DNA of 64,000 nt from Xylanibacter rarus (GTDB lineage: Bacteria; Bacteroidota; Bacteroidia; Bacteroidales; Bacteroidaceae): NCBI RefSeq assembly GCF_001275135.1, contig NZ_LFQU01000002.1, forward strand, positions 124,001-188,000, written 5' to 3'. How positions within the stretch are numbered: the first letter of the stretch is position 1; each line of letters starts with the position of its first letter. This document shows, piece by piece, positions 1,568 through 21,950 of this stretch. Under the pieces are notes generated by a model. That model had not been told where the DNA came from. It did no database searches and was given only the letters and a program-made list of their open reading frames with translations. The position numbers were made by a program, and so were the translations under genes.

Positions 1568-2284
1568 ATGTGCTCGTTGTCTAATGAGAACACCCGGCGA
1601 GGCGGGCAAACCTCAAACACCGGATTTGCCTCCGATGTGTCCCCCAGAACGTGTAAATCAGCTAAAGGGGTGTCCCCCAGTAGTGTCCGGAGACAAAGTG
1701 CCGACCCGCCCGACAAGCCCGACCAGGAGGCTGTGTGGTTCCTGATGAGGGCTGCATACGGACAGGAGAGAAAAGCCAAAGACATACTTGAGGCGGAAAA
1801 CATAGAAGTGTTCCTGCCCGTAACGAACAAAATGCGCATAATAGGCGGCAAGCGCAAGCTGATAACAGAATCGTTGATACCCAACTTTCTGTTTGTACAC
1901 ACCACCGAGAGAATGATAAGAAAATACGTGGGAAGCCCCGGGCTCAGTTTTCTTCATCACTATTATATCCCCAACAAAGACGAAAACGGCTGTCCGATAG
2001 GCAAAAGCGGAATAAAGCCGCTCATAGTTCCCGACGACCAGATGGAGTCTTTCCTCAAATGGTATGAAACTGAAGACGAGAACAAGATGTTCATCTCCGA
2101 CACTGAGAGCGACATATCCAAGGGGGACAAGGTGAAGATAATAAGCGGTAAGTTCACCGGATTCAGCGGCTTTGTCTGCCGCGTAAAAAGGCAAACCCGC
2201 GTGGGGGTAACCATCAATGGCTTCGGCACGATAGTGACGGCATACGTCCCGAAGGCATTTTTACAAAAAGTCACAGAACAGTAA
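1568..2284 (+). CDS. NusG/UpxY-like transcription antitermination protein
   Basis: The product has 238 residues. After a Ser/Pro-rich, probably disordered extension (about 1-55) comes a NusG N-terminal domain beginning AVWFLMRAAYGQERKAK, with the Bacteroidetes UpxY-type pattern of a second core motif ending LIPNFLFVH. A KOW-like segment follows near the end (GDKVKIISGKFTGFSG, about 181-196). UpxY proteins bind RNA polymerase in the leader of long capsule operons and let transcription pass terminators. Here it heads a kinase/FHA operon, with 41 bases to the next gene. An internal ATG at 1744 would delete the first NusG strand, so ATG 1568 is preferred, although the extension is unusually long. 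Confidence 0.88.
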   Translation: MCSLSNENTRRGGQTSNTGFASDVSPRTCKSAKGVSPSSVRRQSADPPDKPDQEAVWFLMRAAYGQERKAKDILEAENIEVFLPVTNKMRIIGGKRKLITESLIPNFLFVHTTERMIRKYVGSPGLSFLHHYYIPNKDENGCPIGKSGIKPLIVPDDQMESFLKWYETEDENKMFISDTESDISKGDKVKIISGKFTGFSGFVCRVKRQTRVGVTINGFGTIVTAYVPKAFLQKVTEQ

Positions 2285-2325
2285 AGAAACAAATTATATC
2301 TACAGCAAATATATTTTAAACAGAT

Positions 2326-3021
2326 ATGGATATCTTAATCGGTAAATTTGGTAATCAGCCATTTAAACTGACCGAACCAAGCATAAGCCGCGAGCATGCC
2401 TTGTTTCATCTTGACGAGGCCACCGGCAAAATGACCCTTAGAGACAACAACTCGACCAACGGCACATGGATAATGTCGGCCAGCGGCAGCTTCAAGCGGC
2501 TTACGGGCGAGGTTCCGGTGAGCCTCAACACGCTTGTGCGCCTCGGGGCAAGACACACCTTCCGCATAAAGGAGCTTATGGCGCAGCAGCCGCCCAAGAC
2601 CGACGACGCCGTGGACATAAGCGAGCTGCGCAACATCTACGAGACCTACAACCGCAACAAGATGTCGCTCGAGGCCAAGACGTCGAACATAATGATGATG
2701 AGAATGGCGTCGCTGTCGCTGGGAAGTATCTTTGCCATACTGCTGACGATGCTTCTGCCCAAGGACTTTGCAGGCGACACCACCGCCAGCGCCGCCATCA
2801 AGGTGGCAGGCAGCATAATAGCCATAGGCTTCTCGTGGATCATAGTTGACGTGAAGAACCGCAGCCTCATACAGCGCAAGGACCAGAACGAGCGCTTTTT
2901 CAGGAAGAAATACTGCTGCCCCAAGTGCGGCTACCACTTCGGCACAAAGCTCTATGAGAACATCCTGGCCGAGGGCAAATGCCCCAACAGCAGCTGCAAG
3001 TGCAAGTTCAAGGGAAAATAG
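2326..3021 (+). CDS. FHA domain membrane protein with C-terminal zinc ribbon
   Basis: The product has 231 residues. An FHA domain occupies about 1-85, with the phosphothreonine-binding signatures SREHA and NSTNGT. A short helical stretch follows, then two membrane segments (about 126-144 and 156-175). The cytoplasmic tail carries a zinc-ribbon pattern CPKCGYHFG ... CPNSSCKC. FHA domains bind phosphothreonine, so the protein probably tethers phosphorylated partners to the inner membrane. It is the first structural gene after the antiterminator and lies 23 bases before the caspase-like gene. Two other FHA proteins of the island also carry CxxC ribbons. Its partner is unknown. Confidence 0.85.
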   Translation: MDILIGKFGNQPFKLTEPSISREHALFHLDEATGKMTLRDNNSTNGTWIMSASGSFKRLTGEVPVSLNTLVRLGARHTFRIKELMAQQPPKTDDAVDISELRNIYETYNRNKMSLEAKTSNIMMMRMASLSLGSIFAILLTMLLPKDFAGDTTASAAIKVAGSIIAIGFSWIIVDVKNRSLIQRKDQNERFFRKKYCCPKCGYHFGTKLYENILAEGKCPNSSCKCKFKGK

Positions 3022-3044
3022 CAACCTTAAAAAGACATCATATT

Positions 3045-3809
3045 ATGAAACACACAAGCATGATTAAGCTGATATCGCTGTCGCTGATGCTACTGCTGGC
3101 AGCAGCGGCATTTCCGCAGAAGACCTACGTGGTGTCGGTCGGCATAGGCGAATACAAGTATCCGCAGGTGGCCCCGCCCCTGCCCTGCTCGGTGGGCGAC
3201 GCCCGTGCCGTGTCGCGCTTCTTCTACAAATACAACGGCAGCAGCGTGTTCATGCTGCTCAACTCCAACGCCACGCGCGACCACATACTGAGAGTGCTCA
3301 AGTCGGAGTTTGCCAAGTCTACGCCCAACGACGAGATAATCTTCGTCTACAGCGGCCACGGCGTGCAGGGCGGACTTACCACCTACGAGACCAAAGACGC
3401 CTCGAGCCTCATCACATACAACGAGATACAGAACATCATGAAGTCGGCCAAGGCCCGCCGCAAGGTGATTCTGGCCATGGCATGCTATTCGGGAGGACTA
3501 ACGCTGAAGAACAGCAACGGCGGCAGGACGCCGCGGCGCAGCACGCAGAAGACAAGCGTGATGCTCTACACGTCGAGCCGCGCCAACGAGGTTTCGTGGG
3601 AAAGTCCCGACATGACCAACTCATTCTTCATCAGCCGCATACTCGAGGCCTTCAGGGGTGCCGCCGACAGGAACGGCGACAGGAAGGTTACGGCGCGCGA
3701 GCTGTTCAACTATGTCAACCCGAGAGTAATCAGCGACACTGAAGGCCAGCAGCATCCGCAAATGTGGGGTAAATTCGACGACAGCATGGTGGTCGTTTAC
3801 GTAAAATAA
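3045..3809 (+). CDS. Secreted caspase-like (C14 family) protein
   Basis: The product has 254 residues, starting at ATG 3045. An upstream in-frame start at 2979 would overlap the previous gene and hide the signal peptide. The N-terminus is a clear signal peptide, basic then a run of Leu/Ala to about residue 25. The caspase-hemoglobinase fold follows, with the catalytic His in YSGHG and the catalytic Cys in ACYSGG. A loop DRNGDRKVTARE near the end resembles a calcium-binding EF-hand loop, as seen in other bacterial caspase-like proteins. The signal peptide puts it in the periplasm or outside. Family knowledge predicts cleavage after Arg, Lys or Asp; the substrate is unknown. Confidence 0.85.
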   Translation: MKHTSMIKLISLSLMLLLAAAAFPQKTYVVSVGIGEYKYPQVAPPLPCSVGDARAVSRFFYKYNGSSVFMLLNSNATRDHILRVLKSEFAKSTPNDEIIFVYSGHGVQGGLTTYETKDASSLITYNEIQNIMKSAKARRKVILAMACYSGGLTLKNSNGGRTPRRSTQKTSVMLYTSSRANEVSWESPDMTNSFFISRILEAFRGAADRNGDRKVTARELFNYVNPRVISDTEGQQHPQMWGKFDDSMVVVYVK

Positions 3810-3826
3810 AAACAACTATAGCAACA

Positions 3827-4447
3827 ATGATAATAAAATGTCCATACTGCGGCCGGCGATTCGAGCTTCAGCGCCGTCCGCCCGAAACATTCTGCTGTCC
3901 CAAATGCTCATACAAGGTGCCGTTCAGCGTGATACTGCAGGAGCAGCACTCTGAGAAGACCATGGCAGCGCCGGCATCAGGCGCCACCGTTACGGCAGGA
4001 GGCGAGCCCCAGGGACTGCCCACGTCGGTCATCAACGGACAGGGAGACAAGACGGTGGTGGTAGAGGGCCTCAACGGCGGACTGAAGACAAGGCTCATAC
4101 CCGAGCTGCAGCAGAAGAGCAAGGGCATACTGCAGGTGAGCTTCCAGGGCATGAGCTTCGGCACTATTAGCCTGCCCCACGGCAACTACTACAACCTGGG
4201 ACGCAAGAGCTCTGACAGCACCGCACAGATAAAGATAACACCCGACATAGCCATGAGCCGCATACATGCAGGCATGCGTACCGTGAAAACGCCCGCAGGG
4301 CAGATTGTCTACCAGATAACATCCGTGAAGACAGAAAACCCCGTATACGTCAACGGGCATGCCATACCCAAGGGCAAGGCTTACAGCCTGAAGACGGGCG
4401 ACATGATAAAGATGGGCGAAACCCTGATGAGGTTTCAAATGGTGTAA
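3827..4447 (+). CDS. Zinc-ribbon FHA domain protein
   Basis: The product has 206 residues with no membrane segment. The N-terminus has a zinc ribbon, CPYCG (5-9) and CCPKC (23-27). The middle is Gly/Ala-rich and contains TSVING and DKTVVVEG, Thr-centred motifs like those in the next gene. The C-terminal FHA domain (about 125-206) has GRKSS, MSRIHA and VYVNG. It probably acts as a cytoplasmic phospho-dependent adaptor. It sits 17 bases after the caspase-like gene. The FHA asparagine-glycine signature is less canonical (ENPVYVNG) than in its neighbours. Confidence 0.82.
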   Translation: MIIKCPYCGRRFELQRRPPETFCCPKCSYKVPFSVILQEQHSEKTMAAPASGATVTAGGEPQGLPTSVINGQGDKTVVVEGLNGGLKTRLIPELQQKSKGILQVSFQGMSFGTISLPHGNYYNLGRKSSDSTAQIKITPDIAMSRIHAGMRTVKTPAGQIVYQITSVKTENPVYVNGHAIPKGKAYSLKTGDMIKMGETLMRFQMV

Positions 4448-4467
4448 ACACTGAACAACGATAGATT

Positions 4468-5181
4468 ATGTCACAGAACAAGACAATAGTACCGGGCGTC
4501 GACTACGACAATCCCGGAAGCAGCGAGTATGACGAGGCAGCGTTCAGCAGCCTCTACACACGTTCGGGCAACGACGACAACCGCACGTGCATAGCCGGCG
4601 CGCAGGGACATGGCTTCCAGGCACAAAGCGCGTCAGGCACAGCCGTGGCCGACAGAGACACCCGGCAGATAACCATGCAGAACCGCGTGATAGTGGGCTG
4701 TCTCTTCTCCATATCCCACGGACTGCTTGGCGAGATGTTCCCGCTCTATCTCGGACGCAACGCCATAGGACAGGCAGCCGGATGCGACGTGTGCCTAAGG
4801 GAGAAGACCGTGTCGCCCGAGCACGCCATACTCTACATACGCAAGGAGGGCAACCCCGTGCGCTTCAACATGACCATAACAGACTACAACTCGGCCAACG
4901 GAACCGAAGTGAACGGCACCGACGCCAGATATAACACTCTGACCGTAAACGAGAACGACGTCATAAGCATAGGCAGACACTACAAGCTGCTCGTAAAGAC
5001 ATTCAACGTGGAGGAGGCCGGCCTCTTTGAGGACGAAGGCTTTGAGGAGACAGGCATGGCGGCTGCAAGCGCCGCAACGGCAGCAGACACCCGCCCCGAG
5101 GCTGACATACAGGACAACTTCTACTCACCATCGGGCAGCAGCGACGACTCGTCACGCACCGTCATATCGGGCATGTTCTGA
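4468..5181 (+). CDS. FHA domain protein with candidate phospho-Thr motifs at both ends
   Basis: The product has 237 residues, acidic and probably cytoplasmic. An FHA domain spans about 95-175 (LGRNAIG, SPEHA, NSANGTEVNG). Three similar short motifs flank it: KTIVPG (5-10), RTCIAG (about 39-44) and RTVISG at the extreme C-terminus (232-237). Each places a Thr after a basic residue and before a hydrophobic residue and Gly. By analogy with GarA/OdhI-type FHA proteins, these could be kinase targets that bind the protein's own or another FHA domain. That role is inference. It sits directly before a PP2C phosphatase gene. Confidence 0.82.
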   Translation: MSQNKTIVPGVDYDNPGSSEYDEAAFSSLYTRSGNDDNRTCIAGAQGHGFQAQSASGTAVADRDTRQITMQNRVIVGCLFSISHGLLGEMFPLYLGRNAIGQAAGCDVCLREKTVSPEHAILYIRKEGNPVRFNMTITDYNSANGTEVNGTDARYNTLTVNENDVISIGRHYKLLVKTFNVEEAGLFEDEGFEETGMAAASAATAADTRPEADIQDNFYSPSGSSDDSSRTVISGMF

Positions 5182-5234
5182 CGCGCCGGCCACACGCCCG
5201 TAAACCATCATACAGAAACATATATCGCTTGACA

Positions 5235-6119
5235 ATGAACGATAACCATCCTACATCTACAATCGGCCTTGAAGAAATAAAACTCATAGCCTCAACAGAC
5301 ACATGCGAGGCATACGGACGCTCCGGCATAGGCGGACGCGAAGAAAACCAGGACTCATACGGCGGCATGGTCAGCGGCAGGGCTGTCATCCTGACCGTAT
5401 GCGACGGCATGGGCGGCATGAACGGCGGACAGACGGCATCGCGCATAGCGGCCACAGAGATAGTGCAGACCCTGGCCGAAGTGCCGGCAGAGAAGATTGG
5501 CCCCGAGGCCGTAAGCAGCGCCGTTGCCAACGCCAACGCAGCCATCTACAGGCGCGCGCTCAACGACCCGCCGCTGCGCGGCATGGGCACCACGACGACG
5601 GTTGTGGCCATAACGCCCGAGGCGGCATATCTGACACACATAGGCGACAGCCGCATCTACCAGCTGAGAGGCGGAAAAAAGATATTCAGAACCTTCGACC
5701 ACTCAAAGGTGTTCGAGATGGTTGCGAAAAATCTGATGACCGAAGAGCAGGCGCGCCTGTCGAGCTTCTCCAACATAATAACAAAGGCCCTGGGCATAAG
5801 GCCGCAGGCAGCTGTCCAGGTGGAGAAGATACCCTACAGGGCCGGCGACAGGTTCATACTCTGCTCCGACGGCATATGGAACTGTGAGCCCGAACCTGAG
5901 ATTATAAAGATGTTCAACGCCTCAAAGCGTCCCGACGAAGCCCTGCGCTATCTAACAGAAAGAGTCAACGCCATAGGCATACAGAACGGCGAAAGCCACG
6001 ACAACCTTACAGCAATAGTTGTCGACATGAAGAAAGACTCAACATACCAGTACAGCTACATGCGGCGCATAAAGGACGCTCTGTCAGAGCAGATAAGGCA
6101 GATAAAGAAGAAGAAATAA
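5235..6119 (+). CDS. PP2C-family Ser/Thr phosphatase
   Basis: The product has 294 residues, starting at ATG 5235; the TTG six bases earlier is less likely. It shows the PP2C metal-binding motifs: REENQDS, CDGMGGM, IGDSR, CSDGIW and a late DNLTA. These residues hold two Mn or Mg ions used to hydrolyse phosphoserine or phosphothreonine. The C-terminus is Lys-rich (IKKKK). No signal or membrane segment is seen, so it acts in the cytoplasm. Placed among FHA proteins and kinases, it is probably the eraser of the phosphorylation cycle. A second PP2C is encoded at 10163. Confidence 0.92.
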   Translation: MNDNHPTSTIGLEEIKLIASTDTCEAYGRSGIGGREENQDSYGGMVSGRAVILTVCDGMGGMNGGQTASRIAATEIVQTLAEVPAEKIGPEAVSSAVANANAAIYRRALNDPPLRGMGTTTTVVAITPEAAYLTHIGDSRIYQLRGGKKIFRTFDHSKVFEMVAKNLMTEEQARLSSFSNIITKALGIRPQAAVQVEKIPYRAGDRFILCSDGIWNCEPEPEIIKMFNASKRPDEALRYLTERVNAIGIQNGESHDNLTAIVVDMKKDSTYQYSYMRRIKDALSEQIRQIKKKK

Positions 6120-6137
6120 AAAAGACAGACATAACGC

Positions 6138-6761
6138 ATGAAGAAAATAACAGTAGGACGCGGCAACGACTGCGACATTGTCATACCCGACGAAAGGGAC
6201 AACGTGAGCAGACACCACATGGTCATCTCGTTCAACCTGCTTGGCAAGATGACCATAAGCGACACAAGCAGCAACGGCACCTTCATCAACGAAAGGAGAA
6301 TGCTGAAAGGAACATCCATACCCGTAACAAGAAACGACAAGATAAGGCTCGGAGACCGCTGGAACTTCGACTGGAACCTGGTAAAGGACCCTTACGTAAC
6401 AATGCGCAAGACTATTATTGCGGCAGCCTCACTGCTGGTTGTTGTCATCATTGCTGCAGTATGGCTCATGTCTGCCGGACAGACGCCGGCACCCGAAGCA
6501 GCTCCTGCTGCACCTAAGGAATATGTAGAGCAAGGCAAAGGCGAATGGAACAAAGACTCCACCAACAAGGTTGCCCCCACGGAGATGTCGATACCCATAG
6601 GCACCAAAGCCGCTGCCGGCGACAACGACGCAAGCACCCGCAGGCGCAGCAGCAGAAAGCAGAGCGCAGGCAAAGCCGTAAAGGCTAAAGGCAACGCAGG
6701 GCAGACCAAGGCATCGGCCAACGTGAATGCACGCACGGACAACATGCCTGTAATAAACTGA
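6138..6761 (+). CDS. FHA domain protein with one membrane span and basic tail
   Basis: The product has 207 residues. The N-terminal FHA domain (about 1-80) is canonical: VGRGNDCDIVIP, VSRHH and SSNGTFINE. A single membrane span follows (about 93-113). The outer part is low-complexity, Ala-rich and then strongly basic (STRRRSSRK ... KAVKAKG). The FHA faces the cytoplasm and the basic tail faces the periplasm. It could link cytoplasmic phospho-state to the envelope. It lies 18 bases after the PP2C gene, with 141 bases before the next gene. No function for the tail is recognised. Confidence 0.82.
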   Translation: MKKITVGRGNDCDIVIPDERDNVSRHHMVISFNLLGKMTISDTSSNGTFINERRMLKGTSIPVTRNDKIRLGDRWNFDWNLVKDPYVTMRKTIIAAASLLVVVIIAAVWLMSAGQTPAPEAAPAAPKEYVEQGKGEWNKDSTNKVAPTEMSIPIGTKAAAGDNDASTRRRSSRKQSAGKAVKAKGNAGQTKASANVNARTDNMPVIN

Positions 6762-6902: not shown

Positions 6903-8129
6903 ATGCGGACAACTATATACAAGACTGCATCAGCAGTTGTTCTCCTGTTGACCATCATAATTCCTGCATACGCACAGCAGGAAACCACCCTGATAATGAA
7001 AAACGGCTCAAAGATTACGGGCAACATCGTGGTTCAGAGGCCCGGCAAGGACATCACAGTGGAGGCAACAAAAGCACTGCTGGTGGTCAGCGACGGCGAA
7101 ATAAAGTCGAAGAAAGACAAATATGTAAAATACGAAAAACTTCCGCGCGAATGGAAGCGCTGGGCCATGGAGACGAAGGCTCTGCAGGGAAACGCCGACG
7201 GGCGCTATCTGATGATGCACAGCATAACGACCGGAAACTACACCTACACCGACGTGGTGAAGACTGAAAAGGGCAACGCGCAGACCGACACTTACCTGCA
7301 GGCCGTGCCGACGACATTCAGCATAAAATGGAACGACATACAGGAAATCAGGCGCAAGGCTCCTGAGGCTGAAGAGGCCACGGGCGTTGACGACGAGGTG
7401 GAGACGGCGGCAGGAAAGACTTACCGCGGAACCATAGTGTCGCAGAAGATAGGACAGACGCTGGCTGTAAAGACCAGTTCGGCAACGGTAGAGCTGGGCA
7501 TGGGCAACATACGCGAGATACGCAAGGTGGCACGCTCGCTCTCGCAGCCGCTCTTCGGTCAGGCAGGATTTGTCAACACGATAGTGATGAAGGACGGAAC
7601 ATCCAAGGACGGCATAATGACAGTTCAGCATTATGGCGCCAAGACCGACGACCAATATGTAACCCTGCTACACGAGGACGGCTCGAAAGAGAAAATACTG
7701 GCAGCCGACGTAACGGAATACAGGACTGCATACAACGGTGAAGACGGCGAGACATACAAGCCCGGCAGAGTCTACGTAAACGAGTTTGCCATATCAAGGG
7801 CAAGGACAATGACCGAAGACGGCGTCACGGCCTATGTGGACAAGAAGGTGTATCCCTTTCCCGAAGGCATCGTTACCACCTTCAAGGCTGCCGGCGCCAA
7901 GTTTCAGGGCAGCTGGCACCTGATAGCCCTCGACAACGTGGAACTGAAAAACGGCACAAAGAGCCAGGGCTACACCACGAAGACAAGAAAGACCAACTGC
8001 ATTGACCCGTCGACAACCGACATGTCGGGCGGCATTAGCAGCATATCGTTCACCTATCTCTCACCCGGCTTCTATGCCCTCGTATGCGACGACAACCCTG
8101 AAACCTACGTGATAAAAATAACCAAATAG
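6903..8129 (+). CDS. Secreted protein with three small beta-rich repeats
   Basis: The product has 408 residues with a signal peptide (to about residue 24, ending AYAQ). Three related segments occur near 30-80, 165-210 and 225-275. Each begins with a turn such as MKNGSKITGNIV, AAGKTYRGTIV or MKDGTSKDGIM and runs into alternating hydrophobic strands that end near EIR or EYR. These look like small barrel repeats. The C-terminal 100 residues look like a beta-sandwich (SFTYLSPGFYALV). I do not recognise a named family. It is probably periplasmic. Its place among the FHA genes suggests it is an outer component of the same machine. Confidence 0.7.
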   Translation: MRTTIYKTASAVVLLLTIIIPAYAQQETTLIMKNGSKITGNIVVQRPGKDITVEATKALLVVSDGEIKSKKDKYVKYEKLPREWKRWAMETKALQGNADGRYLMMHSITTGNYTYTDVVKTEKGNAQTDTYLQAVPTTFSIKWNDIQEIRRKAPEAEEATGVDDEVETAAGKTYRGTIVSQKIGQTLAVKTSSATVELGMGNIREIRKVARSLSQPLFGQAGFVNTIVMKDGTSKDGIMTVQHYGAKTDDQYVTLLHEDGSKEKILAADVTEYRTAYNGEDGETYKPGRVYVNEFAISRARTMTEDGVTAYVDKKVYPFPEGIVTTFKAAGAKFQGSWHLIALDNVELKNGTKSQGYTTKTRKTNCIDPSTTDMSGGISSISFTYLSPGFYALVCDDNPETYVIKITK

Positions 8130-10158: not shown

Positions 10159-10162
10159 AATC

Positions 10163-11401: not shown

Positions 11402-11409
11402 TTATCTCG

Positions 11410-12864: not shown

Positions 12865-13157
12865 TAACCTTCCATTACTGATATATAAGACTCTTGGAGA
12901 CATTACCCGCCGGCGGAATTATCCTGACTGGCAGCTGACAGTTATAGTTTCAAAAGATATCATTTCAGCCTGCGGAACATGGGCTTTCGTCTTCTGAAAG
13001 ATAACCTTTCACAACATAAAAGGACACCTTTTGGAAACCTGCCGGAATCAAGAGAAAACCGTAAGAAAAAGCCGCAGAAATGCGACAGACCGTAAGTTCC
13101 GGCGCAATGGCATAAAAAAACCTGACGTCTACCTTGAAAATCATTCATTGAAGCAAC

Positions 13158-16100
13158 ATGATACCGACAGACATACTTAATTATAGAATTGTGCGCCACC
13201 TGGGCTCAGGCGGCATGGGCAGTGTTTACCTTGCAGTAAACACGAACATTGACCAACAGGTGGCAATAAAGGCCTTGAAGCCTGAAATTGCCCGTAACCC
13301 CGCGCTCCGCGCACGATTCAAGCAAGAGGCCGAACTGCTCTGCTCGCTCGACCACCAGGGCATTGTGAAGTTCCTCAACTATGTTGAAACGCCTGAAGGC
13401 GTATTCCTTATAATGGAATATGTCAAAGGAATAACGCTCGAAGACTTCATCAACAAGAAAAACGGCCTGATTGTCGAAAAGAAAGCCTATCCCATGATAT
13501 GTGAGATACTTGATGCGTTTGAATATGCCCACTCAAAAGGCATTGTTCACCGCGACATCAAGCCCTCGAACATAATCATACAGGAAGACGGGCATATTAA
13601 GATAATGGACTTCGGTATAGCGCAGATTGTGTCTGAGGCTAACATGGCTGACAGCAGATACATAATGGGCACACCGACATACATGAGCCCCGAGCAGATT
13701 TACGGCAGGAACGTAGACACCCGTTCGGACATATATTCAATCGGAGTGCTGATTTACCACATGCTGACAGGCCGCGCACCGTATGACTCAACCATGCTTA
13801 CGGCGCAGGAAATAAGGCAGAAGGTGGTGAGAGAAGACATGCCGCGCATGGCAGAATATTATCCTTATATATCAAACAAGATACAGGAGGTTGTAGACAA
13901 AGCCACACAAAAGATTCCCGAAGCACGCTATCAGTCGTGCATGGAGATGAAGGCCGCCGTGAAAAAAGCCATCGCCCCCGACCCTATACCGCGCCCGCTG
14001 ATCTACGGAGGAGCAGCCGTCGCGGTGATACTGATGCTCGTGGGCTTCTTCACATGGGACTACTACCGCACAAAGGTAAAATACTATCGCGATTATGTTG
14101 AAGTCTACGGCATACCCGAAGGAGTGGGCCGGCTGAGCAGCAGCGAAATGTCTCACCGCGAGGCGTCGTACCGCTTTGAATATTCAAGACACAAGCTCCG
14201 CCGCGTGTCGTACGTGAACAGCAAGGGCAAGCTGGTTGACCATCACGACTCTGAAGACAAAGACCGCATAGTTGACATGACGCTGCTTTACACCGAAGGA
14301 AGCGGAAAGGTTGACTCTGAGAAATTCATGGACCGCAGCGGCAAGGTGCTGTACGTAAAAGACTACGACAGCAACATGAAGACCTGCACCTTCAAGCTGG
14401 ACGACGAACTCGGCACCGAGATGACGCTCAACGCACAGGTGAAGCTCTTTCAAAGCGCATTCGATGTTTCTCTCGACGGAAAGGGGAAGATATCAAAGTA
14501 CATTCTCGAATATGATGACGAAGGACATCTCGTGAAGGTTGAATATGCCGGATTCGGCAATGTCAGGGTGCCCGACGGACAAGGCATCTTCGGCCGCAGA
14601 TATGTCCTTGATGACAAAGGACGCGTAATAGAGGAACACTATCTTGGAAAAGACGGCAAGCCCAAGGCCACACAATTCGGCCTAGGCGTGAAGAAATTCA
14701 CCTACGACGATGACGGCAACCTGTCTAAGATTGTTTACCTCACGGTGGACGGAAAGCCGAGCAGCGACGGCAACAACTGCCCGGTGGTGCTGCTGACCTA
14801 CGACAAATGGGGCAACCGCACATCAGAGAAATACACCGACATAAACGGCCAGCCGATGATACGCAAGGACGACGCCTTTGCGGGCATTCTCTACGAATAC
14901 AACGACGACGGCACATGCAAGAAGAGACAGTATCTCGGAGTAGACGGCAGGCTGACATACGTTAAAGGCGTCAGCGGATATGTCAACGAGTATGATGACA
15001 ACGGATACCTGTCGGGCATTTCGTATGTCGATGCCAAAGGAAATGCGGCATACTTCAACGACACGGATGACGAAGCCACATATTCGAAACAGAAATTTGT
15101 CAACGACGACAAGGGGAACATTATCGACCACAAGCTGCTCGACGCGTCGGGCGAACTCGTAGAGACGGCTTACTTTGCCCACAAGAAAAGCACATACGAC
15201 TCGCTTGGCAACATGCTCACAGAATATTACTTCGACAAAAAAGGAAAGATATACGCACCTGCCAAACTGGGATACGCCGGTCTGGAGGCAAGATACGACA
15301 AGCAGGGACGCCTGGCAAGACTCACCTACATGGGCGCGGCCAAGGAGCGCATAATGCTATCAGACATGCACTTCTGCTACTTCACCAAAGAATATGACGC
15401 CCGCGGAAACTGCACGAAGTTCTCTTACTTCGACGACAAGGACAAGCCGGCCATGACATCACAGGGAGCGTCAACGGTGTGCTATGAATATGACGACAAC
15501 GGGAACGAGACAGCGCGCTACTTCCTCGACACCGAAGGCCGCCCGTGCGTGCTCAACAATTTCTGCTCACGCGTGGAATACGAGTACGACAGCCAGGGCA
15601 ACTGCATATCAGAAAGGCACAAGAACACCGACGGAAAACTGATGTCGGTGTCGGGTGTGGCATACTATGAGTGGGAGTTCGACCAGAAAGGCAACGTAAC
15701 GGCCGAACGCTCCATGGGCACAAACGGAAAGCTTGCCGCAGGAAAATATGAGATCAGATACAAATATGACGGACGCGACAACGTAACCGAACGCTCCTAC
15801 TTCAGCAGCGGAAACAGGCCGGCACTGTGTGACGGGGGATATCACAAAGAGGTGATGAAATACAACTCGAACAACATGTGCGTGCAACAGGAATACTACG
15901 GAACCGACGGCAGGCTGAAAAACATCAGCGGACAGAACCTTGCTGTCATAAAGCGCGAATACGACGAGCGCGGAAACAAGACCTCGGAAGTGTTCTTCAC
16001 GCAGAACGGCACACGAGGATGCGACAACGAAAAGGTGCACAAATACTACAACCAGTACGACAGAATTGCCAACAAGGTGAGCCATCAGATTTCATTCGGC

Positions 16101-16940
16101 ATTGACGGCAAGCCAGTTGTAGCCAACAATATCGCGGCTGAAGGCCGCACCGTCTACGACAAGCGGGGCAACATGACCAAGATAATGTGCTATGACGGAT
16201 ACGGAAAGAGCATAAACGGCAGACAGGGATGGAGCGAGTGCAGATTCACATACAACGAAGCCGGCGACATAACCTCGAAGGCATACTTTGACATCAACGG
16301 TAAAGCCGTTGCCGACAAGAGCGAGAAGATACACAAGTATACATACACATACAACGGGATGCGCATGCTAAGCAGCGAATCTTATTACGGCGCCGACGGC
16401 AAGCCGGCAAACACGGCAAGCGGATACAGCACCGTAAAATATAAGTACAACAAGCAGAACCAGCTTACGGAAACGGCATGCTACGGAGCCGGAGGCCGCC
16501 CCGTGGACAACAGTCAGGGATGGCACCGCCTGGTTTACTCTTACAGGGCAGGCACACAGTATAAATGCGTCTTCTACGACAAGAACAACCGCAAGCTGGG
16601 CACAGCCACAAACACAGACGGCAAATGGAGCCTGCAGGTGGAGCAACGGCAGAACATGACCGGAGGCTACGGCTGGCAGGCAGCATGGCGGCAAGCGGCA
16701 AGAGAGTGCCCCACAAGGATAGCCGACGGACTGACAATAGAAAGCGTAACCGTAGGCAACGACGCCGTTACCCTGGCCGTATACATCGAGAACTTTTCAT
16801 CAGAACAGATAACAAGCGAAATGCTCAACGTCCTGCGGCAGTTTGTGTCAACACTTAGAAAGTCGACGTCGACGCCGTCGTATGTTGACATACGCATGAT
16901 AGTGTACGACATGAACCACGAAAGGACAGCCATAATATAA
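13158..16940 (+). CDS. Receptor-like Ser/Thr kinase with large YD-type repeat ectodomain
   Basis: The product has 1260 residues. The kinase domain (about 7-268) has GSGGMGSVY, VAIKAL, HRDIKPSN, DFGIAQ and SPEQ. A membrane span follows at about 277-296. The rest is outside the membrane: roughly 16-18 units of 35-45 residues, each with a Y-x-Y-D-x-x-G-N core and an x-D-G-K/R-P turn, like YD/RHS-type repeats. A different C-terminal segment of about 130 residues closes it. The layout is that of a transmembrane receptor whose repeats could bind a ligand such as glycan or peptidoglycan; no ligand can be named. It begins after a 293-base gap, so it may have its own promoter. Confidence 0.92.
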   Translation: MIPTDILNYRIVRHLGSGGMGSVYLAVNTNIDQQVAIKALKPEIARNPALRARFKQEAELLCSLDHQGIVKFLNYVETPEGVFLIMEYVKGITLEDFINKKNGLIVEKKAYPMICEILDAFEYAHSKGIVHRDIKPSNIIIQEDGHIKIMDFGIAQIVSEANMADSRYIMGTPTYMSPEQIYGRNVDTRSDIYSIGVLIYHMLTGRAPYDSTMLTAQEIRQKVVREDMPRMAEYYPYISNKIQEVVDKATQKIPEARYQSCMEMKAAVKKAIAPDPIPRPLIYGGAAVAVILMLVGFFTWDYYRTKVKYYRDYVEVYGIPEGVGRLSSSEMSHREASYRFEYSRHKLRRVSYVNSKGKLVDHHDSEDKDRIVDMTLLYTEGSGKVDSEKFMDRSGKVLYVKDYDSNMKTCTFKLDDELGTEMTLNAQVKLFQSAFDVSLDGKGKISKYILEYDDEGHLVKVEYAGFGNVRVPDGQGIFGRRYVLDDKGRVIEEHYLGKDGKPKATQFGLGVKKFTYDDDGNLSKIVYLTVDGKPSSDGNNCPVVLLTYDKWGNRTSEKYTDINGQPMIRKDDAFAGILYEYNDDGTCKKRQYLGVDGRLTYVKGVSGYVNEYDDNGYLSGISYVDAKGNAAYFNDTDDEATYSKQKFVNDDKGNIIDHKLLDASGELVETAYFAHKKSTYDSLGNMLTEYYFDKKGKIYAPAKLGYAGLEARYDKQGRLARLTYMGAAKERIMLSDMHFCYFTKEYDARGNCTKFSYFDDKDKPAMTSQGASTVCYEYDDNGNETARYFLDTEGRPCVLNNFCSRVEYEYDSQGNCISERHKNTDGKLMSVSGVAYYEWEFDQKGNVTAERSMGTNGKLAAGKYEIRYKYDGRDNVTERSYFSSGNRPALCDGGYHKEVMKYNSNNMCVQQEYYGTDGRLKNISGQNLAVIKREYDERGNKTSEVFFTQNGTRGCDNEKVHKYYNQYDRIANKVSHQISFGIDGKPVVANNIAAEGRTVYDKRGNMTKIMCYDGYGKSINGRQGWSECRFTYNEAGDITSKAYFDINGKAVADKSEKIHKYTYTYNGMRMLSSESYYGADGKPANTASGYSTVKYKYNKQNQLTETACYGAGGRPVDNSQGWHRLVYSYRAGTQYKCVFYDKNNRKLGTATNTDGKWSLQVEQRQNMTGGYGWQAAWRQAARECPTRIADGLTIESVTVGNDAVTLAVYIENFSSEQITSEMLNVLRQFVSTLRKSTSTPSYVDIRMIVYDMNHERTAII

Positions 16941-16971: not shown

Positions 16972-17895
16972 ATGAAAACTTTAAAAATCATTATCTGCCT
17001 GCTTTTAGCGTTTACGGCATCAGCATCGGCAGGCGATCTGACTCCGGCTCAGAAAGACGCACAGCTAAAACTTTACAACTATTTGCAGAAGAAGAAATAC
17101 GAACCTTCTGTCGACACGTCTGACAACAGTGTATGCTTCCGCCGCGAGGGAGTGCTCTACTGGATAACGTTCGACGAGAACTCGCCCATACTCTACACCT
17201 TCCACAGAAAGGCATTCAAGGTGGGCGCTGACGAGATGTCGTATAAGCGCATACCCAGCATAATAGCTGCCAACGAGGTAAACCGCAAGCACAAGACCGT
17301 GAAGCTTACCGTTGAAGACAAGAAGGTTGAGATAGCCATACAGGTATATGCCGCAAAGACCGAAGACTTCACGGCAGTGTTTTCAAGCTATTTCTCAAGA
17401 TTTGAGGATGTAGACACCGACTTTAAGAACGAATACCAGACGGCTCTAAAGGCTGAGCGCGAATCAATGAACAGACTGGAGGAGGAGGCACGCAAAGACC
17501 TTCCGCCAAGCGTGCTCACCGACAAGATTGTCAACATGTCCTTCCGCCTGCTCGATGCCGACGGCGTGGAGAAGACGGCCTACGACCAGCCTCTGCGCAG
17601 CTTCAACGCAAGATACATACAGGCACGCATAGAGTTTGCGCCATGGAGAGAGAAGGCACAGGACTTCGACCTGCAGCTGAGGGTTACAAGACCTAACGGA
17701 AAGACCATCTGCATGCCAGGAAAGAAAGTAACCTCGGAGATGAACATAACACTCGAGAAGTCGAAGAAGAACCAGATGATAGAGTTAGGACAGTTCGGCT
17801 CGCCTAAAGAAGGATTCTGGAAGGCCGGCGAATACAAGGTGGAAGTCATCGAGTCGGGCGACGTAATTTACACCACCACGTTTAATATCCTGTAA
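16972..17895 (+). CDS. Secreted protein of unknown function
   Basis: The product has 307 residues with a signal peptide (to about 20, ending SASAG). The first third (YNYLQKKKYEPSVD to about residue 125) resembles small alpha/beta YbjN-like domains, which is tentative. The C-terminal part (about 180-307) looks like a beta-sandwich, ending with KAGEYKVEVIESG. It follows the receptor kinase gene at 31 bases and precedes a lipoprotein gene at 12 bases, so it probably works with the kinase ectodomain outside the membrane. No family is recognised with certainty. Confidence 0.65.
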   Translation: MKTLKIIICLLLAFTASASAGDLTPAQKDAQLKLYNYLQKKKYEPSVDTSDNSVCFRREGVLYWITFDENSPILYTFHRKAFKVGADEMSYKRIPSIIAANEVNRKHKTVKLTVEDKKVEIAIQVYAAKTEDFTAVFSSYFSRFEDVDTDFKNEYQTALKAERESMNRLEEEARKDLPPSVLTDKIVNMSFRLLDADGVEKTAYDQPLRSFNARYIQARIEFAPWREKAQDFDLQLRVTRPNGKTICMPGKKVTSEMNITLEKSKKNQMIELGQFGSPKEGFWKAGEYKVEVIESGDVIYTTTFNIL

Positions 17896-17907
17896 AACAC
17901 ACACAAC

Positions 17908-18318
17908 ATGAAAAAGCTAATCATATTTGCCGCCATAGCCGTGCTGACGGCGGCTTTGTGCGTAAGCTGCAAGCAAAAGAACAAAGACATTGAACTGCTG
18001 CAGAACTTTGTTGAAGAGATAAACTCACAGCCGGGCAAAGACCTTGCTAACGGAACAGTGCTGACAAAATGTGAATACAAGCAGGGCGACAGCCTCTTCA
18101 CATACAGGATAAAGATAAGCGACGACCGCTTCAGCAACGTTGCGGCAGACTCGGTGAAGAGCACGCTGTCAAAGAAGCTGACAGAGCCGGGAATGCAGAA
18201 ACTTGTAAAGATACTGTCGCGCAATTCTATCGGACTTCAGTATGTCTACGAGATGGAAGGCAACGAGATGACCGTAGTGTTCACTCCTTCTGAACTTAGC
18301 ACACAGCAGAATCAATAA
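17908..18318 (+). CDS. Small lipoprotein of unknown function
   Basis: The product has 136 residues. The N-terminus is a lipoprotein signal with lipobox-like LCVSC (Cys about 26) followed by KQKNK. The rest is a small alpha/beta domain (LQNFVEEINSQPG ... FTYRIKISDDRF). No family is recognised. It lies 12 bases after the previous secreted protein gene and ends just before a terminator-like structure. It may be an envelope accessory protein of the receptor kinase. Confidence 0.65.
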   Translation: MKKLIIFAAIAVLTAALCVSCKQKNKDIELLQNFVEEINSQPGKDLANGTVLTKCEYKQGDSLFTYRIKISDDRFSNVAADSVKSTLSKKLTEPGMQKLVKILSRNSIGLQYVYEMEGNEMTVVFTPSELSTQQNQ

Positions 18319-18339
18319 CATTTCATCAACGTTGTGTCA

Positions 18340-18430: not shown

Positions 18431-18447
18431 TTATAATACATATTGTC

Positions 18448-18828
18448 ATGACATTCACAGATTCAGTCAGATCATGCATAAACAAATATGCCACCTTCAG
18501 CGGGCGCGCATCGAGGTCAGAATTCTGGTGGTTCTGGCTTTTCACATTTATTGTGCAGATCGTTTCGCTCACCATATTCTCCGTCATAGGCTATCTGCTG
18601 GGAGGCTACGACGGCTGCACGATATCATTATCTATCTGTTCAGTATTATGCATCCTGCTGCTCACCGTGCCATACTTATCGGTGCTTGTCAGGCGCCTGC
18701 ACGACACTAACCACAGCGGATGGTGGTATTTCATATCGCTGATACCGCTCATAGGCACAATATGGCTGATAATACTTCTTGCCACCGACAGTGACGAGGA
18801 GAACAAGTACGGCCTGCCTGTTTATTAA
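18448..18828 (+). CDS. DUF805 family membrane protein
   Basis: The product has 126 residues. It shows the DUF805 (YhaH/YhaI) signature: an early FSGRASRSEFWWFWLF, three hydrophobic spans and a conserved RRLHDTNHSGWW before the last span. These are small inner-membrane proteins with no established biochemical role, often near envelope-stress or secretion genes. It comes directly after the terminator-like structure and 48 bases before the third kinase gene. Its presence in a kinase/FHA cluster is a contextual clue only. Confidence 0.9.
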   Translation: MTFTDSVRSCINKYATFSGRASRSEFWWFWLFTFIVQIVSLTIFSVIGYLLGGYDGCTISLSICSVLCILLLTVPYLSVLVRRLHDTNHSGWWYFISLIPLIGTIWLIILLATDSDEENKYGLPVY

Positions 18829-18876
18829 CACACAACACCTTTACAAGCAAAGAACTGAAAAAACAACAATAAAAAA

Positions 18877-20295
18877 ATGGCAAAAATAAGACTACAGGGA
18901 GAAGAAGAGAAAAGAAAAAACATATGTTTTGAGGTTGACACCGCCAATCCGCCAATAGGCGAAGGAGGCATGGGCAAGGTGATGAAGGGCGTCTGCATAG
19001 ACATCGCGACCAACATATCGCGCCCCGTCGCCATAAAGTTTCTTTATGAAGACCTGCCGCCACACGCCATCGAGAGGGCACGGCGCGAGGCATCAATACG
19101 CCTGCGCAACGACAACCTGATAGAGATGCTCGGATTCATCGAAACCGAGACTAAGCACGGCACGATGACACGCAAGCACTACCACGTTGTCAGCGAGCTG
19201 CTTAACGGCATTCCGCTGTCGAGCATCTTTGAGGGCAAGTGCACCGACGCCGACGGCCACGAGAATCCGTTTGCCAAGAAGCTGCTAAAAGAGTTTCAGG
19301 CCGACTCCGTACACTTTGCAAAGACCATAATGCTCAACGTGCTTTCAGGACTCATAGCGCTGCACGACGCAGGATACGTACACCGCGACATTGACCCGTC
19401 GAACATCATGCTGACCGAGGACGGACACATCAAGCTGATCGACTTCGGTATAGCGAAGCAGGTGAACAAGCTCACCACCAACGACCGCGGACTGACAACT
19501 GCCGGAACCTTCATGGGCAAGGCTGAATATGCCGCGCCAGAGCTTGCCATAGGCGACCTGAAACACCAGAACCAGACCACCGACATATACGCCATGGGCA
19601 TACTGCTCTATCAGTGCATCGTGGGTCATGTGCCGTTTGAAGGACAGTCGCACGTAGTGCTCGAGAAACAGCTGCACAAGAAAATTCCACTCGCACAGAT
19701 CAAAGACCGCGGCATGCGCAAGATAATAGAATGCGCCACCGACAAAGACCAGAACGTGCGCTATCAGACAGCGGCACAGATGCGCGTGGCGATAGAAAAC
19801 CTCGACGGCAAGAAGCGACAGCTCAAGAAGTCGACAAGAATAACCATAGCTGCCGCCTGCGCTGCCATAGCGGTTGCCATAATAGCCATAGGAGGCGTGT
19901 CATATCACAACAAGAAGGTGGAGCAGGAGCAGATAGCTCTCGAGATAAAAGCCACCAACGACTCGCTGCGCACCAAGACCGAAACCCTCACTCTCACGGC
20001 CGACAAGAGCCTCGCCACGGGCGACAGGCACGACGAGGGATACGAGCGCCACTATATCGACGCCTACAAGAAATACATGGAGGCACTGGCCATTGCCAAA
20101 AAGATAACAGAGAACAAGCCTGACACCAAGAACATAAGCCTCAACCGCGACAAGGCCAAGGATGCCCTGCTGAAGGCAAAGGCCGAACTGGAAGCCAAGG
20201 CTAAAGACTTTGAGGCCAGCGACATGCAGGATATAGCCAAAGAATTCCACACCAGAGTTAAGAACATTACAGACGCATTAAGTTATAATCCATAA
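18877..20295 (+). CDS. Ser/Thr protein kinase with altered catalytic loop
   Basis: The product has 472 residues. The kinase domain (about 14-310) has GEGGMGKV, VAIKF, DFGIAKQ and a normal C-lobe. The catalytic loop reads HRDIDPSN, with Asp where the usual Lys stands (HRDxKxxN). The catalytic Asp and the metal-binding Asn remain, so activity is possible but may be altered. One membrane span follows (about 328-347), then a helical, coiled-coil-like periplasmic part rich in Lys/Ala/Glu. The start fits the 48-base spacing after the DUF805 gene. It is the third kinase of the island. Confidence 0.9.
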   Translation: MAKIRLQGEEEKRKNICFEVDTANPPIGEGGMGKVMKGVCIDIATNISRPVAIKFLYEDLPPHAIERARREASIRLRNDNLIEMLGFIETETKHGTMTRKHYHVVSELLNGIPLSSIFEGKCTDADGHENPFAKKLLKEFQADSVHFAKTIMLNVLSGLIALHDAGYVHRDIDPSNIMLTEDGHIKLIDFGIAKQVNKLTTNDRGLTTAGTFMGKAEYAAPELAIGDLKHQNQTTDIYAMGILLYQCIVGHVPFEGQSHVVLEKQLHKKIPLAQIKDRGMRKIIECATDKDQNVRYQTAAQMRVAIENLDGKKRQLKKSTRITIAAACAAIAVAIIAIGGVSYHNKKVEQEQIALEIKATNDSLRTKTETLTLTADKSLATGDRHDEGYERHYIDAYKKYMEALAIAKKITENKPDTKNISLNRDKAKDALLKAKAELEAKAKDFEASDMQDIAKEFHTRVKNITDALSYNP

Positions 20296-20309
20296 TCTTT
20301 TTTTGAACT

Positions 20310-20936
20310 ATGAGTACTATTGCCAAACTTCTTTTAACCGTTGTCATTGCCGTGTTGTCTCTTCAGGCCAACGCACAGACCGCCGGCGACCGCCTGTTTG
20401 CACAGGGACAGAAGCTGCAGCTGAAGCAGACCGTAAGCTCGCAGAAACAGGCCATTGCAAAGTTCAGCGCAGCCAAGAAGGCCTACGACTCAAGCACCAA
20501 GAAGGCTATGTGCGACAACCAGATTGCAATATGCAGGAGCAACATCAAGCTGATAACGCGAAAGACAAGGACCGTGACGAAAAAAGAGACCGTCGTGCTC
20601 GAGAAAGCCGACTCTGCCGTTCCGCCCGAGGTGGCCAAAGACCCCGTAAGGCTCAGCCTGTCGGTGTCGTCGGTAGAATTTAAGTCGTCAGGCAAGAAGA
20701 GCGACAACCACGAGGTGACGGTAAACTGCAACTACGACGACTGGACCTACACCTTCCCGGAATGGGTCGACGTCACCAAAAACGGCAACAAGCTGACGCT
20801 TACCGCCGACCCCAACAAGACAGACGGAGAACGCTCGGGCGTGCTCACCGTAAAATGCTACGATGAGAAGGCCGAACTGATGATCTATCAGAAAAAGCCG
20901 TTCTCGCTGAAGTCTCTCATCGGCGGCAAGAAGTAA
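20310..20936 (+). CDS. Secreted BACON-domain protein
   Basis: The product has 208 residues. A signal peptide (to about 23, ANAQ) is followed by a helical segment (about 25-75, with TPR-like character). A BACON-type Ig-like domain comes next (about 115-200: LSLSVSSVEF, PEWVDVTKNGNKLTLTADPN, RSGVLTVKC). BACON domains in Bacteroidetes occur in secreted glycan- or protein-binding proteins. The C-terminus is basic (GGKK). It lies 14 bases after the kinase gene and 17 before the sigma factor gene. It may be an envelope ligand or scaffold for the kinase. Confidence 0.82.
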   Translation: MSTIAKLLLTVVIAVLSLQANAQTAGDRLFAQGQKLQLKQTVSSQKQAIAKFSAAKKAYDSSTKKAMCDNQIAICRSNIKLITRKTRTVTKKETVVLEKADSAVPPEVAKDPVRLSLSVSSVEFKSSGKKSDNHEVTVNCNYDDWTYTFPEWVDVTKNGNKLTLTADPNKTDGERSGVLTVKCYDEKAELMIYQKKPFSLKSLIGGKK

Positions 20937-20953
20937 GAACAACATAAGCTGAC

Positions 20954-21550
20954 ATGAATATCACTGACCGTGAAGTGGTCCGGGCACTGCTGCAGCGCGA
21001 CGCCCGGGTCACAAGGGACTTCTTTTACCGTAAATGCTATCCGCTCTTCAAGTCTGTGTACGACAACTACCACACAGACTGCTCGTCGTGCATGGAGTTT
21101 ATAAGCGAAATATACGTCCACATAATGACTCCCGACAAAGCCGGCGGACAATGCAAGCTCGAAGGGTTCAGATACCAGAGCACGCTCTTCACATGGCTAA
21201 AGGCCGTGTGCCTCTTCTACTGCTACAAGAGATATGAGCGCAGGACAAAAATGCCGACAGAACAAATTTCTGAAAAATTTGACGGCCAGGGTGTAAGAAT
21301 CGACACCATTCCCGCATCTATAGAGTTAGACATCTCATCTCTTCAGGCCGACGACGCCGAAACCATACTGAGGCTGATGCCCAACAGAAGATACAGCAGG
21401 CTGATAAGGCTGCGATATCTATGCGGACACACCAACGAGGAGACGGCCATGATGATGGGAATGAACATGAACACCTTCTACAACAAGCACAAGATGGCTA
21501 AAGAACAATTTTTAAAGACACTAAGAACGGAGGAAATGCGACATGGATGA
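20954..21550 (+). CDS. ECF-like RNA polymerase sigma factor
   Basis: The product has 198 residues. Region 2 (about 5-100) has the helical pattern leading to STLFTWLKAVCLFYCYKRYERR. Region 4 (about 135-190) has the helix-turn-helix GHTNEETAMMMGMNMNTFYNKHKMAK. It would direct RNA polymerase to specific promoters, perhaps those of this island. Its stop overlaps the next gene by 8 bases, the usual sign of coupling to an anti-sigma factor. Region 2 is more diverged than in typical FecI-like Bacteroidetes sigma factors, so promoter specificity cannot be inferred. Confidence 0.82.
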   Translation: MNITDREVVRALLQRDARVTRDFFYRKCYPLFKSVYDNYHTDCSSCMEFISEIYVHIMTPDKAGGQCKLEGFRYQSTLFTWLKAVCLFYCYKRYERRTKMPTEQISEKFDGQGVRIDTIPASIELDISSLQADDAETILRLMPNRRYSRLIRLRYLCGHTNEETAMMMGMNMNTFYNKHKMAKEQFLKTLRTEEMRHG

Positions 21551-21950
21551 CTACGGCAACTTTACCCTTGACGAGAACATGTTTTCGGCATGGCTCGACG
21601 GAAATATGACGCCCGACGAGGAAGAGGCTTTCATGGACATGTGTGCCGACGATCCCGCCATGGGCGAAATACTCGACGCCAACGACCAGGTGGACGACTA
21701 CTACGAAAGTCTTATAGACGGAGGATACGAGATACCCGAGGAGCTCGACACCGACTTCGACCTGCCCTACATATCACCGGCAGACGAAGACGACGACATT
21801 TACAGCTATGAAGACATCGAGCCGTATGACGACAGCAGCGACAGCCATGACATGACTGACGACGGCATGACAGACAGCGACGGCTTCGACGACGACAACG
21901 CGACGGATCACTTCGGCAGCGACACTTATCAGGACATGGACTTAATGTAG
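21543..21950 (+). CDS. Acidic putative anti-sigma factor
   Basis: The product has 135 residues and is extremely acidic. The first 45 residues (FSAWLDGNMTPDEEEAF ... DDPAMGEILD) match the short helical pattern found at the start of many anti-sigma factors, although the usual His-Cys-Cys zinc triad is absent. The rest is Asp-rich with no membrane span. It overlaps the sigma gene by 8 bases, so the two are probably translated together. Inference: it binds and restrains the sigma factor. It is the last gene before the strong terminator. Confidence 0.65.
   Translation: MDDYGNFTLDENMFSAWLDGNMTPDEEEAFMDMCADDPAMGEILDANDQVDDYYESLIDGGYEIPEELDTDFDLPYISPADEDDDIYSYEDIEPYDDSSDSHDMTDDGMTDSDGFDDDNATDHFGSDTYQDMDLM

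Follow-up and report, generated by a model that had tools for sequence, protein, structure and literature searches.

A putative phosphothreonine signalling island of Xylanibacter rarus, apparently undescribed and one variant of a patchily spread Bacteroidales family

What does a Bacteroidales cell do with six FHA domains, three Ser/Thr kinases, two PP2C phosphatases and a secreted caspase-like protein that are encoded side by side? The question is raised by a phospho-signalling island of Xylanibacter rarus, whose 20 genes, all on the + strand, cover about 20 kb (positions 1568-21950, from the list of open reading frames (ORFs) and family scans; Table 1) of the window analysed here, the whole stretch of 64,000 nucleotides taken from contig NZ_LFQU01000002.1. 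The island is read here as one variant of Bacteroidales trans-envelope Ser/Thr phosphorylation switches, built like the threonine phosphorylation pathway of type VI secretion systems (T6SS), a reading to which a probability of about one half is given. The switch probably steers envelope proteolysis and perhaps a sigma factor. The gene set is apparently undescribed: no name or description of it was found among the open-access papers searched, most subscription papers lying outside that search, in agreement with the preliminary description of this DNA, whose author knew of no system of such composition.

Families were assigned by Pfam and NCBIfam scans and transmembrane (TM) helices by hydropathy; some motifs were recognised by eye. 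The collinear set of signalling genes and secreted caspase-like protein that had been proposed from the sequence is confirmed in coordinates, order and families. So is its compactness: 15 of the 19 intergenic gaps are below 60 nt and the remaining four measure 141, 198, 293 and 129 nt. The island has 52% G+C and holds six of the seven FHA matches detected at E 0.001 in the host genome (3.79 Mb, 99.91% complete), the seventh being found in a frame of 182 amino acids (aa) outside it. The kinase motifs VAIK, HRD and DFG, the PP2C aspartate motifs and the caspase His/Cys pair are all present in island proteins. The glycine loop of the kinase-FHA fusion reads ARGGMG, not GxGxxG. Among the six FHA domains, that of FHAa alone carries GK, the rest GR. 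Ser/Thr kinases usually carry HRDxKPxN; the catalytic-loop aspartate of kin17 is invariant in the seven sequences compared. By hydropathy, TM helices are predicted for each of the three kinases and for PP2Cb, FHAa, FHAd and the DUF805 protein, while signal-like amino termini are found in the caspase, proteins 8, 14 and 15, and BACON protein 18. A search of solved structures returned none for protein 8 or the caspase and one weak match for protein 14.

The same genes recur in order in other genomes. Scanning 84,980 genomes with an alignment of kin17 sequences gave at least 406 confirmed matches, the best 80 of which led to 76 loci. Locus labels are the best BLAST matches to window and seed proteins among paralogues and do not denote orthology; the label 13kinYD mostly corresponds in relatives to a short kinase resembling the catalytic domain of kinase 13. 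Counts of ORF labels run low because picking the longest ORF hides genes behind antisense ORFs, and those of the caspase, UpxY and the protease part of FHA2x, an FHA-TM-protease of relatives, were obtained by tblastn. All loci assigned to a group (L064 and L104 have none) belong to Bacteroidales, e.g. Prevotella, Bacteroides, Phocaeicola, Muribaculaceae, Porphyromonadaceae and Lentimicrobiaceae. Every labelled family gene of the 76 loci is co-oriented with the query kinase (538/538) and neighbours are separated by a median of 13 nt, 388 of 432 gaps being shorter than 60 nt. Pair order is mostly one-way, the kinase-13-like gene preceding PP2Ca in 44 cases versus 0 and FHAc preceding kin17 in 43 versus 0; it is less strict for PP2Ca and FHAd (48 versus 12) and for PP2Ca and kin17 (19 versus 4). 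The gene order thus recurs in other Bacteroidales and the homologues are not scattered without order, so that the preliminary description withstands its own refuting condition.

The distribution of the gene set is patchy. PP2Cb was matched at E 1e-20 in 17 of 151 genomes of the family. Within the genus, kin17 is present in 16 of the 249 genomes; both counts include the window genome. In a sample of 395 genomes of the phylum, kin17 was found only in the window genome and in G013. A viral origin was rejected as no confirmed relative of PP2Cb is present in viral_contigs. Spread by plasmids was also rejected: 210 plasmid records match PP2Cb, none covering 80% of it and at most 69% among the matches listed, and these look like generic PP2C proteins.

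Three arrangements are distinguished among the relatives. Block A consists of FHAa, caspase, FHAb, FHAc, kin17, PP2Ca, FHAd and a WG-repeat protein (L104, L102 and L120; L123 lacks the caspase), to which L104 adds a beta-barrel, a lipoprotein, an M6 protease and protein 8. Block B starts with the acidic protein, FHAe, PP2Cb, kinase-FHA, kinase 13, protein 14 and the lipoprotein, and continues with a further PP2C, in two cases the sigma factor and its partner, kin17 and BACON; it is found in L062, L065, L069/L123, L073 (without kinase 13) and L074, several of these being cut at one end. The commonest arrangement, core C, has FHAc, kin17, a short kinase, PP2Ca, FHAd, FHA2x, WG protein, beta-barrel, lipoprotein and protein 8. 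The window corresponds to block A, minus its kin17 and its stretch from WG to M6, joined to block B. Of the core C genes, FHAc, PP2Ca, FHAd and protein 8 stand in order in the window, where kin17 is found at another place and the other core genes are not in the island. The WG-repeat protein, outer membrane (OM) beta-barrel, large lipoprotein and FHA-TM-protease found in relatives are thus missing, which makes it doubtful that the island is self-contained, as had been suggested. The earlier observation is real; it understated the breadth of the family and overstated the self-sufficiency of the island.

The fullest relative, RUG11857 (G083), holds most island genes on 29 kb, the A side followed by the B side. 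It additionally has kin17 after FHAc, WG protein, beta-barrel, lipoprotein, M6 protease and a further PP2C; it lacks the caspase, its sigma pair precedes kin17-BACON, and a DUF805 segment ends its kinase-FHA gene. Such a segment is also found at the carboxyl-terminal end of this gene in L065 (4708-5064), L069 (2117-2518) and L073 (6222-6560), while it is a separate gene in the window. The RUG11857 island is closed by a gene (L028, 998-2353) whose product has many DxDGDG motifs and, by eye, a C39-like carboxyl-terminal part, without a Pfam match. Sides A and B are also linked in L073, where the caspase end, FHAb and FHAc are followed by B, and in L065, where FHAd is. G052 and G071 share FHAe, PP2Cb and kinase-FHA with the window, and G052 also kinase 13. 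Another set in G052, about 12 kb away from its FHA-kinase operon, comprises zinc-ribbon-like proteins, a large kinase and a PP2C (L052, 630-11212).

A kin17 tree was built with 80 rows (at least 44% identity, more than 300 aa) by a quick method without bootstrap, and groups were defined by a neighbourhood rule. Ten rows belong to none of the three main groups. Group B requires 3 label changes and group C 9, and only the T6SS group forms one clade (100%). The window kin17 groups with those of L062, L069, L073 and L074 (99%) within a clade of 18 rows (96%), in 17 of which a BACON gene adjoins kin17; none is labelled for L077.

A candidate output is found in the proteases of the family. In FHA2x, two FHA domains are combined with a Trypsin_2 domain (Pfam on one copy, L131); in the search of solved structures its only matches were to FHA. 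Among its 50 copies one fragment was set aside; each of the 49 full-length ones, longer than 400 aa, has one predicted TM segment and keeps the His-Asp-Ser triad (TNxH, Dx[AS], GxSGS). By topology, the FHA domains would be inside and the HtrA-like protease outside. The protease part is present in 51 of the 76 loci and the caspase in four (only the gene end in L073), without a single locus having both (chance 0.0099, ignoring kinship). The caspase His/Cys dyad is invariant in all five homologues. Further exported proteases are encoded, of M6 type in four loci (L104, L123, L082 and L068) and of S41 type in four (Pfam on one of each); the M6 matches total eight, L029 duplicating the L123 stretch and those of L130, L091 and L094 lying apart from the operon. 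The intact triad and dyad and the recurring M6 and S41 proteases are the reason why envelope proteolysis is proposed as the output. A different cluster of G066 (L044, 471-9766) codes for a caspase, an FHAa-like protein, a PP2C and a kinase; inspection by eye adds another PP2C, a Gly-rich acidic protein and a vWA-like gene. There again the caspase is beside FHA proteins.

The sigma/anti-sigma pair proposed to close the island stands in part. The sigma factor scores 37.5 bits with TIGR02937 (cut-off 42.9), matches extracytoplasmic function (ECF) models only under cut-off and has homologues in L062 and L069. Its putative anti-sigma partner matched no family in the Pfam and NCBIfam scans, and its only recurring feature is the position beside the sigma gene (L062, RUG11857). 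ECF sigma factors of the EcfP/PknT type are kinase-controlled. The island resembles such systems in having an ECF-like sigma gene near a Hanks-type kinase, but its sigma factor is divergent and paired with an unmatched protein.

One branch of the family is found next to T6SS genes, a link that the preliminary description did not foresee. In SW299 (G013) FHAc, a kinase, PP2Ca, FHAd, FHA2x with intact triad motifs, protein 8, kin17 and WG protein are encoded on one strand, directly upstream and in the orientation of genes for a ClpB/ClpV-type ATPase, TssC, TssD and VgrG, with another kinase-kin17 set placed after the baseplate genes. Pfam confirms TssC (436 bits), TssD, VgrG-type and DUF4280 proteins and gives weak matches for TssK and TssF; other genes of the cluster are presumably those of TssB, TssE and TssG. 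The DUF4280 protein encoded at L046 12439-13746, in this cluster beside the core operon, has an Ntox46-like carboxyl-terminal domain. Six kin17 loci were classed as T6SS-type, five with Tss-like neighbours and L128 only with the same partner kinase. The core operon is upstream on the same contig in the same orientation in four of them (L124/L042, L127/L134, L133/L126, L119/L132), with about 8-12 kb separating the core and T6SS blocks on three contigs; the contig of L128 measures 4.7 kb, and the stretch covered for L129 ends before the region further upstream. TssD was found in six of 16 kin17 genomes of the genus versus 32 of 233 others (Fisher p 0.021, ignoring kinship). Neither the word kinase nor FHA appears in the main text of a survey of Bacteroidales T6SS (PMC4714493) or of a paper on the T6SS membrane complex (PMC10781749).

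The threonine phosphorylation pathway of proteobacterial T6SS combines a kinase, a PP2C and an FHA protein, and in Pseudomonas also TagQRST, according to the relevant part of PMC5995506. The island is like this pathway (PpkA-PppA-Fha, TagQRST) in coding for Ser/Thr kinase, PP2C and FHA proteins together with envelope accessories, as is the G013 core set in its position ahead of a T6SS cluster. It differs in the number of its kinases (three) and FHA domains (six); Pfam gave no match for TagF, no TssD was found in the host genome, and its family has FHA-TM-HtrA or caspase proteins. The likeness is thus one of working and not of membership, since no T6SS was found in the window genome: TssD gave no match there in a search that detects it in 5 of 24 genomes, nor did VipB, whose model differs from the Bacteroidales TssC model, which was not searched. 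The T6SS is therefore regarded as the partner of one branch and not as the job of the window island.

From this anatomy we infer how the switch might operate. The kinase with YD repeats and kin17, through their outer domains, and the membrane-bound kinase-FHA protein would sense an envelope or surface signal, assisted by the secreted and lipid-anchored partners. The kinases would then phosphorylate threonines on cytoplasmic or membrane partners, the FHA proteins would dock on the phosphothreonine to build a complex, and the two PP2C enzymes would reset it. In most relatives an FHA membrane protein with an HtrA-like protease across the membrane would turn the inner phospho-signal into envelope proteolysis, while in the island variant the secreted caspase-like protein may fill the slot of the FHA-TM-protease. 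The sigma factor may add a transcriptional output, and UpxY would let the polymerase traverse the unit of about 20 kb.

Several points weigh against this reading. The FHA-TM-protease is missing from the window, and the protease readout is therefore an extrapolation from relatives; the window genome as a whole has no FHA2x in the genome-wide FHA search, because six of the seven matches belong to the island and the other sits in the 182-aa frame. Loci with the caspase are few in number and perhaps related by kinship, with L073 showing the gene end only, at the stretch edge, and the caspase itself has neither an FHA nor a TM tie to the relay. RUG11857 gave no match for caspase or FHA2x, having the M6 protease, and the labels in relatives are subject to the paralogy mentioned above. 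A bolder form of the idea is tentative and somewhat doubtful: that Bacteroidales have unnamed inside-out machines in which cytoplasmic phosphothreonine gates an envelope protease via FHA-FHA-TM-HtrA, the island caspase being an alternative output, and that one branch was recruited as the threonine-phosphorylation control of the Bacteroidota T6SS.

Table 1. Genes and transcription signals of the island (window positions)
Feature	Position	Strand	Evidence and remarks
Bacteroidetes-type promoter motif TTTG-N20-TAATTTTG	1230..1261	+	ahead of UpxY
UpxY-family NusG antiterminator	1568..2284	+	NF033644 135.5 bits (cut-off 100); profile spans residues 57-232
FHAa: FHA, two TM helices, C-terminal Cys4 motif (by eye)	2326..3021	+	Pfam FHA 3.5e-9; homologues L102, L104, L120, L123
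Secreted caspase-like protein (C14)	3045..3809	+	Peptidase_C14 8e-20; His105, Cys147
FHAb: Cys-rich N-terminus (by eye), FHA	3827..4447	+	Pfam
FHAc: FHA	4468..5181	+	Pfam; best-hit label in 58/76 loci
PP2Ca phosphatase with metal-binding motifs	5229..6119	+	Pfam, motif check
FHAd: FHA, one TM	6138..6761	+	Pfam, hydropathy
Secreted protein 8, no named family above cut-off	6903..8129	+	label in 43/76 loci
Acidic protein 9: Gly-rich hydrophobic segment, DxDGxG-type motifs (by eye), no Pfam match	8328..9461	+	
FHAe: Cys-rich N-terminus (by eye), FHA	9508..10158	+	Pfam
PP2Cb phosphatase: one TM, C-terminal tail	10163..11401	+	Pfam, hydropathy
Kinase-FHA fusion (kinase 12), two C-terminal TMs	11410..12864	+	Pfam, hydropathy
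Kinase 13: kinase, TM, long RHS/YD-repeat region presumably outside	13158..16940	+	Pfam, hydropathy
Secreted protein 14 (block B), no Pfam match	16972..17895	+	
Probable small lipoprotein 15	17908..18318	+	by eye; no match in lipobox scan
DUF805 membrane protein	18448..18828	+	Pfam
kin17: kinase, HRDIDPSN catalytic loop, one TM	18877..20295	+	Pfam; clade mainly BACON-linked
Secreted BACON-domain protein 18	20310..20936	+	Pfam
ECF-like sigma factor	20954..21550	+	below curated cut-off
Acidic small protein overlapping sigma gene; putative anti-sigma	21543..21950	+	
Intrinsic terminator	22015..22055 (about)	+	folding versus shuffles

Does the island act as one unit? The motif TTTG-N20-TAATTTTG, which we take to be a Bacteroidetes-type promoter motif, occurs in full five times on the + strand of the window and not on the - strand; one copy is at the island and the next + strand one after it is at 28080. 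Structure is found in the leader at 1268-1570 (z -2.53, equalled by one shuffle in 100), and the strong closing terminator noted earlier is borne out by folding (z -3.06, equalled by none of 200 shuffles). Within the island, the -7 motif TAnnTTTG occurs twice versus 1.74 expected; it is not depleted and therefore provides no evidence for a single transcript. No RNA family reaches its gathering score in window positions 1-26000. The short gaps, promoter motif, structured leader and strong terminator fit one long transcription unit without proving it.

It is unlikely that blocks A and B are instead two independent phospho-signalling operons in tandem with separate outputs, although this explanation survives best among the alternatives. 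G052 (L030) has B-type genes without A genes, and the window kin17 falls in the B-side clade, apart from the group of those encoded after FHAc in L102, L104, L120 and L123 (Shimodaira-Hasegawa-like approximate likelihood ratio test (SH-aLRT) 93). However, RUG11857, L073 and L065 have A genes joined to B genes, block A of the window has no kinase of its own, and the island has a single promoter motif and a single terminator. An A block without B is not shown by L102, L104 and L120, whose stretches end before the place of B.

Still less probable is an anti-phage or programmed-death system in which kinases and phosphatase act as in KKP or Stk and the caspase kills. PADLOC models for kinase and caspase do match, and the region downstream has PDC-S26, two PDC-S01 and weak JetC and JetD matches; yet PADLOC gave only generic kinase, caspase and PP2C-like matches for the ten island proteins run. 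The signal-like amino termini of the caspase and of proteins 8, 14, 15 and BACON, the membrane-bound kinases, and the T6SS coupling and OM beta-barrels of relatives point to the envelope. KKP is defined, in the relevant section of PMC11341870, by two kinase genes of 900-1300 bp behind a PP2C gene, with a kinase-cold-shock fusion. The island order PP2C, kinase-FHA, kinase (10163-16940) is like that of this prophage and defence module, but its kinase genes measure 1455 and 3783 bp and code for membrane proteins within a block of 20 genes with exported proteins, and no cold-shock domain was found in the island by Pfam. A caspase-fold protein near phospho-signalling domains is also a feature of EACC1-type caspases and STAND/vWA-MoxR conflict systems, for which the consulted part of PMC7159879 reports sporadic FHA domains among effectors and a kinase-PP2C-vWA set in actinobacteria. 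In contrast to these, the island caspase looks exported and scores 65.4 bits with NF047832 (cut-off 140), and Pfam gave no STAND or vWA-MoxR match in the island. Of the envelope-stress, surface or defence machine first suggested, envelope signalling fits best and defence is without direct support.

That the island is a T6SS threonine phosphorylation pathway regulating a T6SS elsewhere in the genome is very improbable. The arrangement in SW299, three more contigs with both sets co-oriented and the TssD enrichment speak for it, but TssD was not matched in the nearly complete window genome, a T6SS label is absent from the stretch examined in most of the 76 loci, and T6SS kin17 form a separate clade, so that this reading is largely excluded for the window island.

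Very improbable too is a role in regulating surface polysaccharide or some other surface locus of UpxY type. UpxY proteins do act on B. fragilis capsule operons (in the part of PMC7819879 concerned) and, as in UpxY-headed capsule operons, UpxY is the first gene of a long block behind a leader, but Pfam gave no glycosyltransferase, polysaccharide-export or other polysaccharide gene match in the island and 43 of 47 relatives with upstream DNA have no UpxY match. UpxY is directly ahead of the first family gene in the other four (L102, L104, L130, L132; loci with more than 1.5 kb upstream, T6SS-type ones left out, by tblastn). The antiterminator noted at the head of the island is thus real for the window and for two of the three caspase loci with upstream DNA (L102, L104; L120 has the caspase without UpxY), and is not general in the family. 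The window genome has four UpxY-type matches, two above cut-off. Because 56 amino-terminal residues of the island UpxY fall outside the profile, its true start is uncertain and may lie downstream.

The island is bracketed by direct repeats of about 400 nt (687-1095 and 22216-22618), 92% alike and the only two long copies at such identity; 34 further matches, with 40 of 86 candidates scored, are weaker or partial, one of them within the repeat itself. These repeats could mark an insertion, a duplication or a recombination unit. No empty site was found and no right-flank gene was matched in the three stretches examined, while relatives of the left-flank gene (66, 52, 51 and 49%) are present in four of 248 other genomes of the genus at E 1e-60. 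The window segment directly after the island (22001-25000) is AT-rich (33% G+C), with a PDC-S26-type candidate defence gene and, by eye, a second nuclease-like ORF. Further downstream, four genes at 39490-45731 resemble Wadjet-type JetABCD, PADLOC giving weak matches for JetC (2.9e-5) and JetD (8.5e-4) only. A small Ser/Thr kinase and an adjoining unmatched gene are found outside the island at 46247-47628, and tandem near-duplicate ORFs of 1168 and 1162 aa at 52324-59381 have, by eye, leucine-rich-like repeats and HEAGGH near the carboxyl terminus.

The most testable new claim proposed here is the link from phosphothreonine to an envelope protease in the core family. If the reading is true, a signalling system missed in gut and rumen Bacteroidales would be named, a phosphothreonine signal would have a new route across the membrane, with FHA domains inside and a serine protease outside, and the Bacteroidota T6SS would gain a candidate phosphorylation control.

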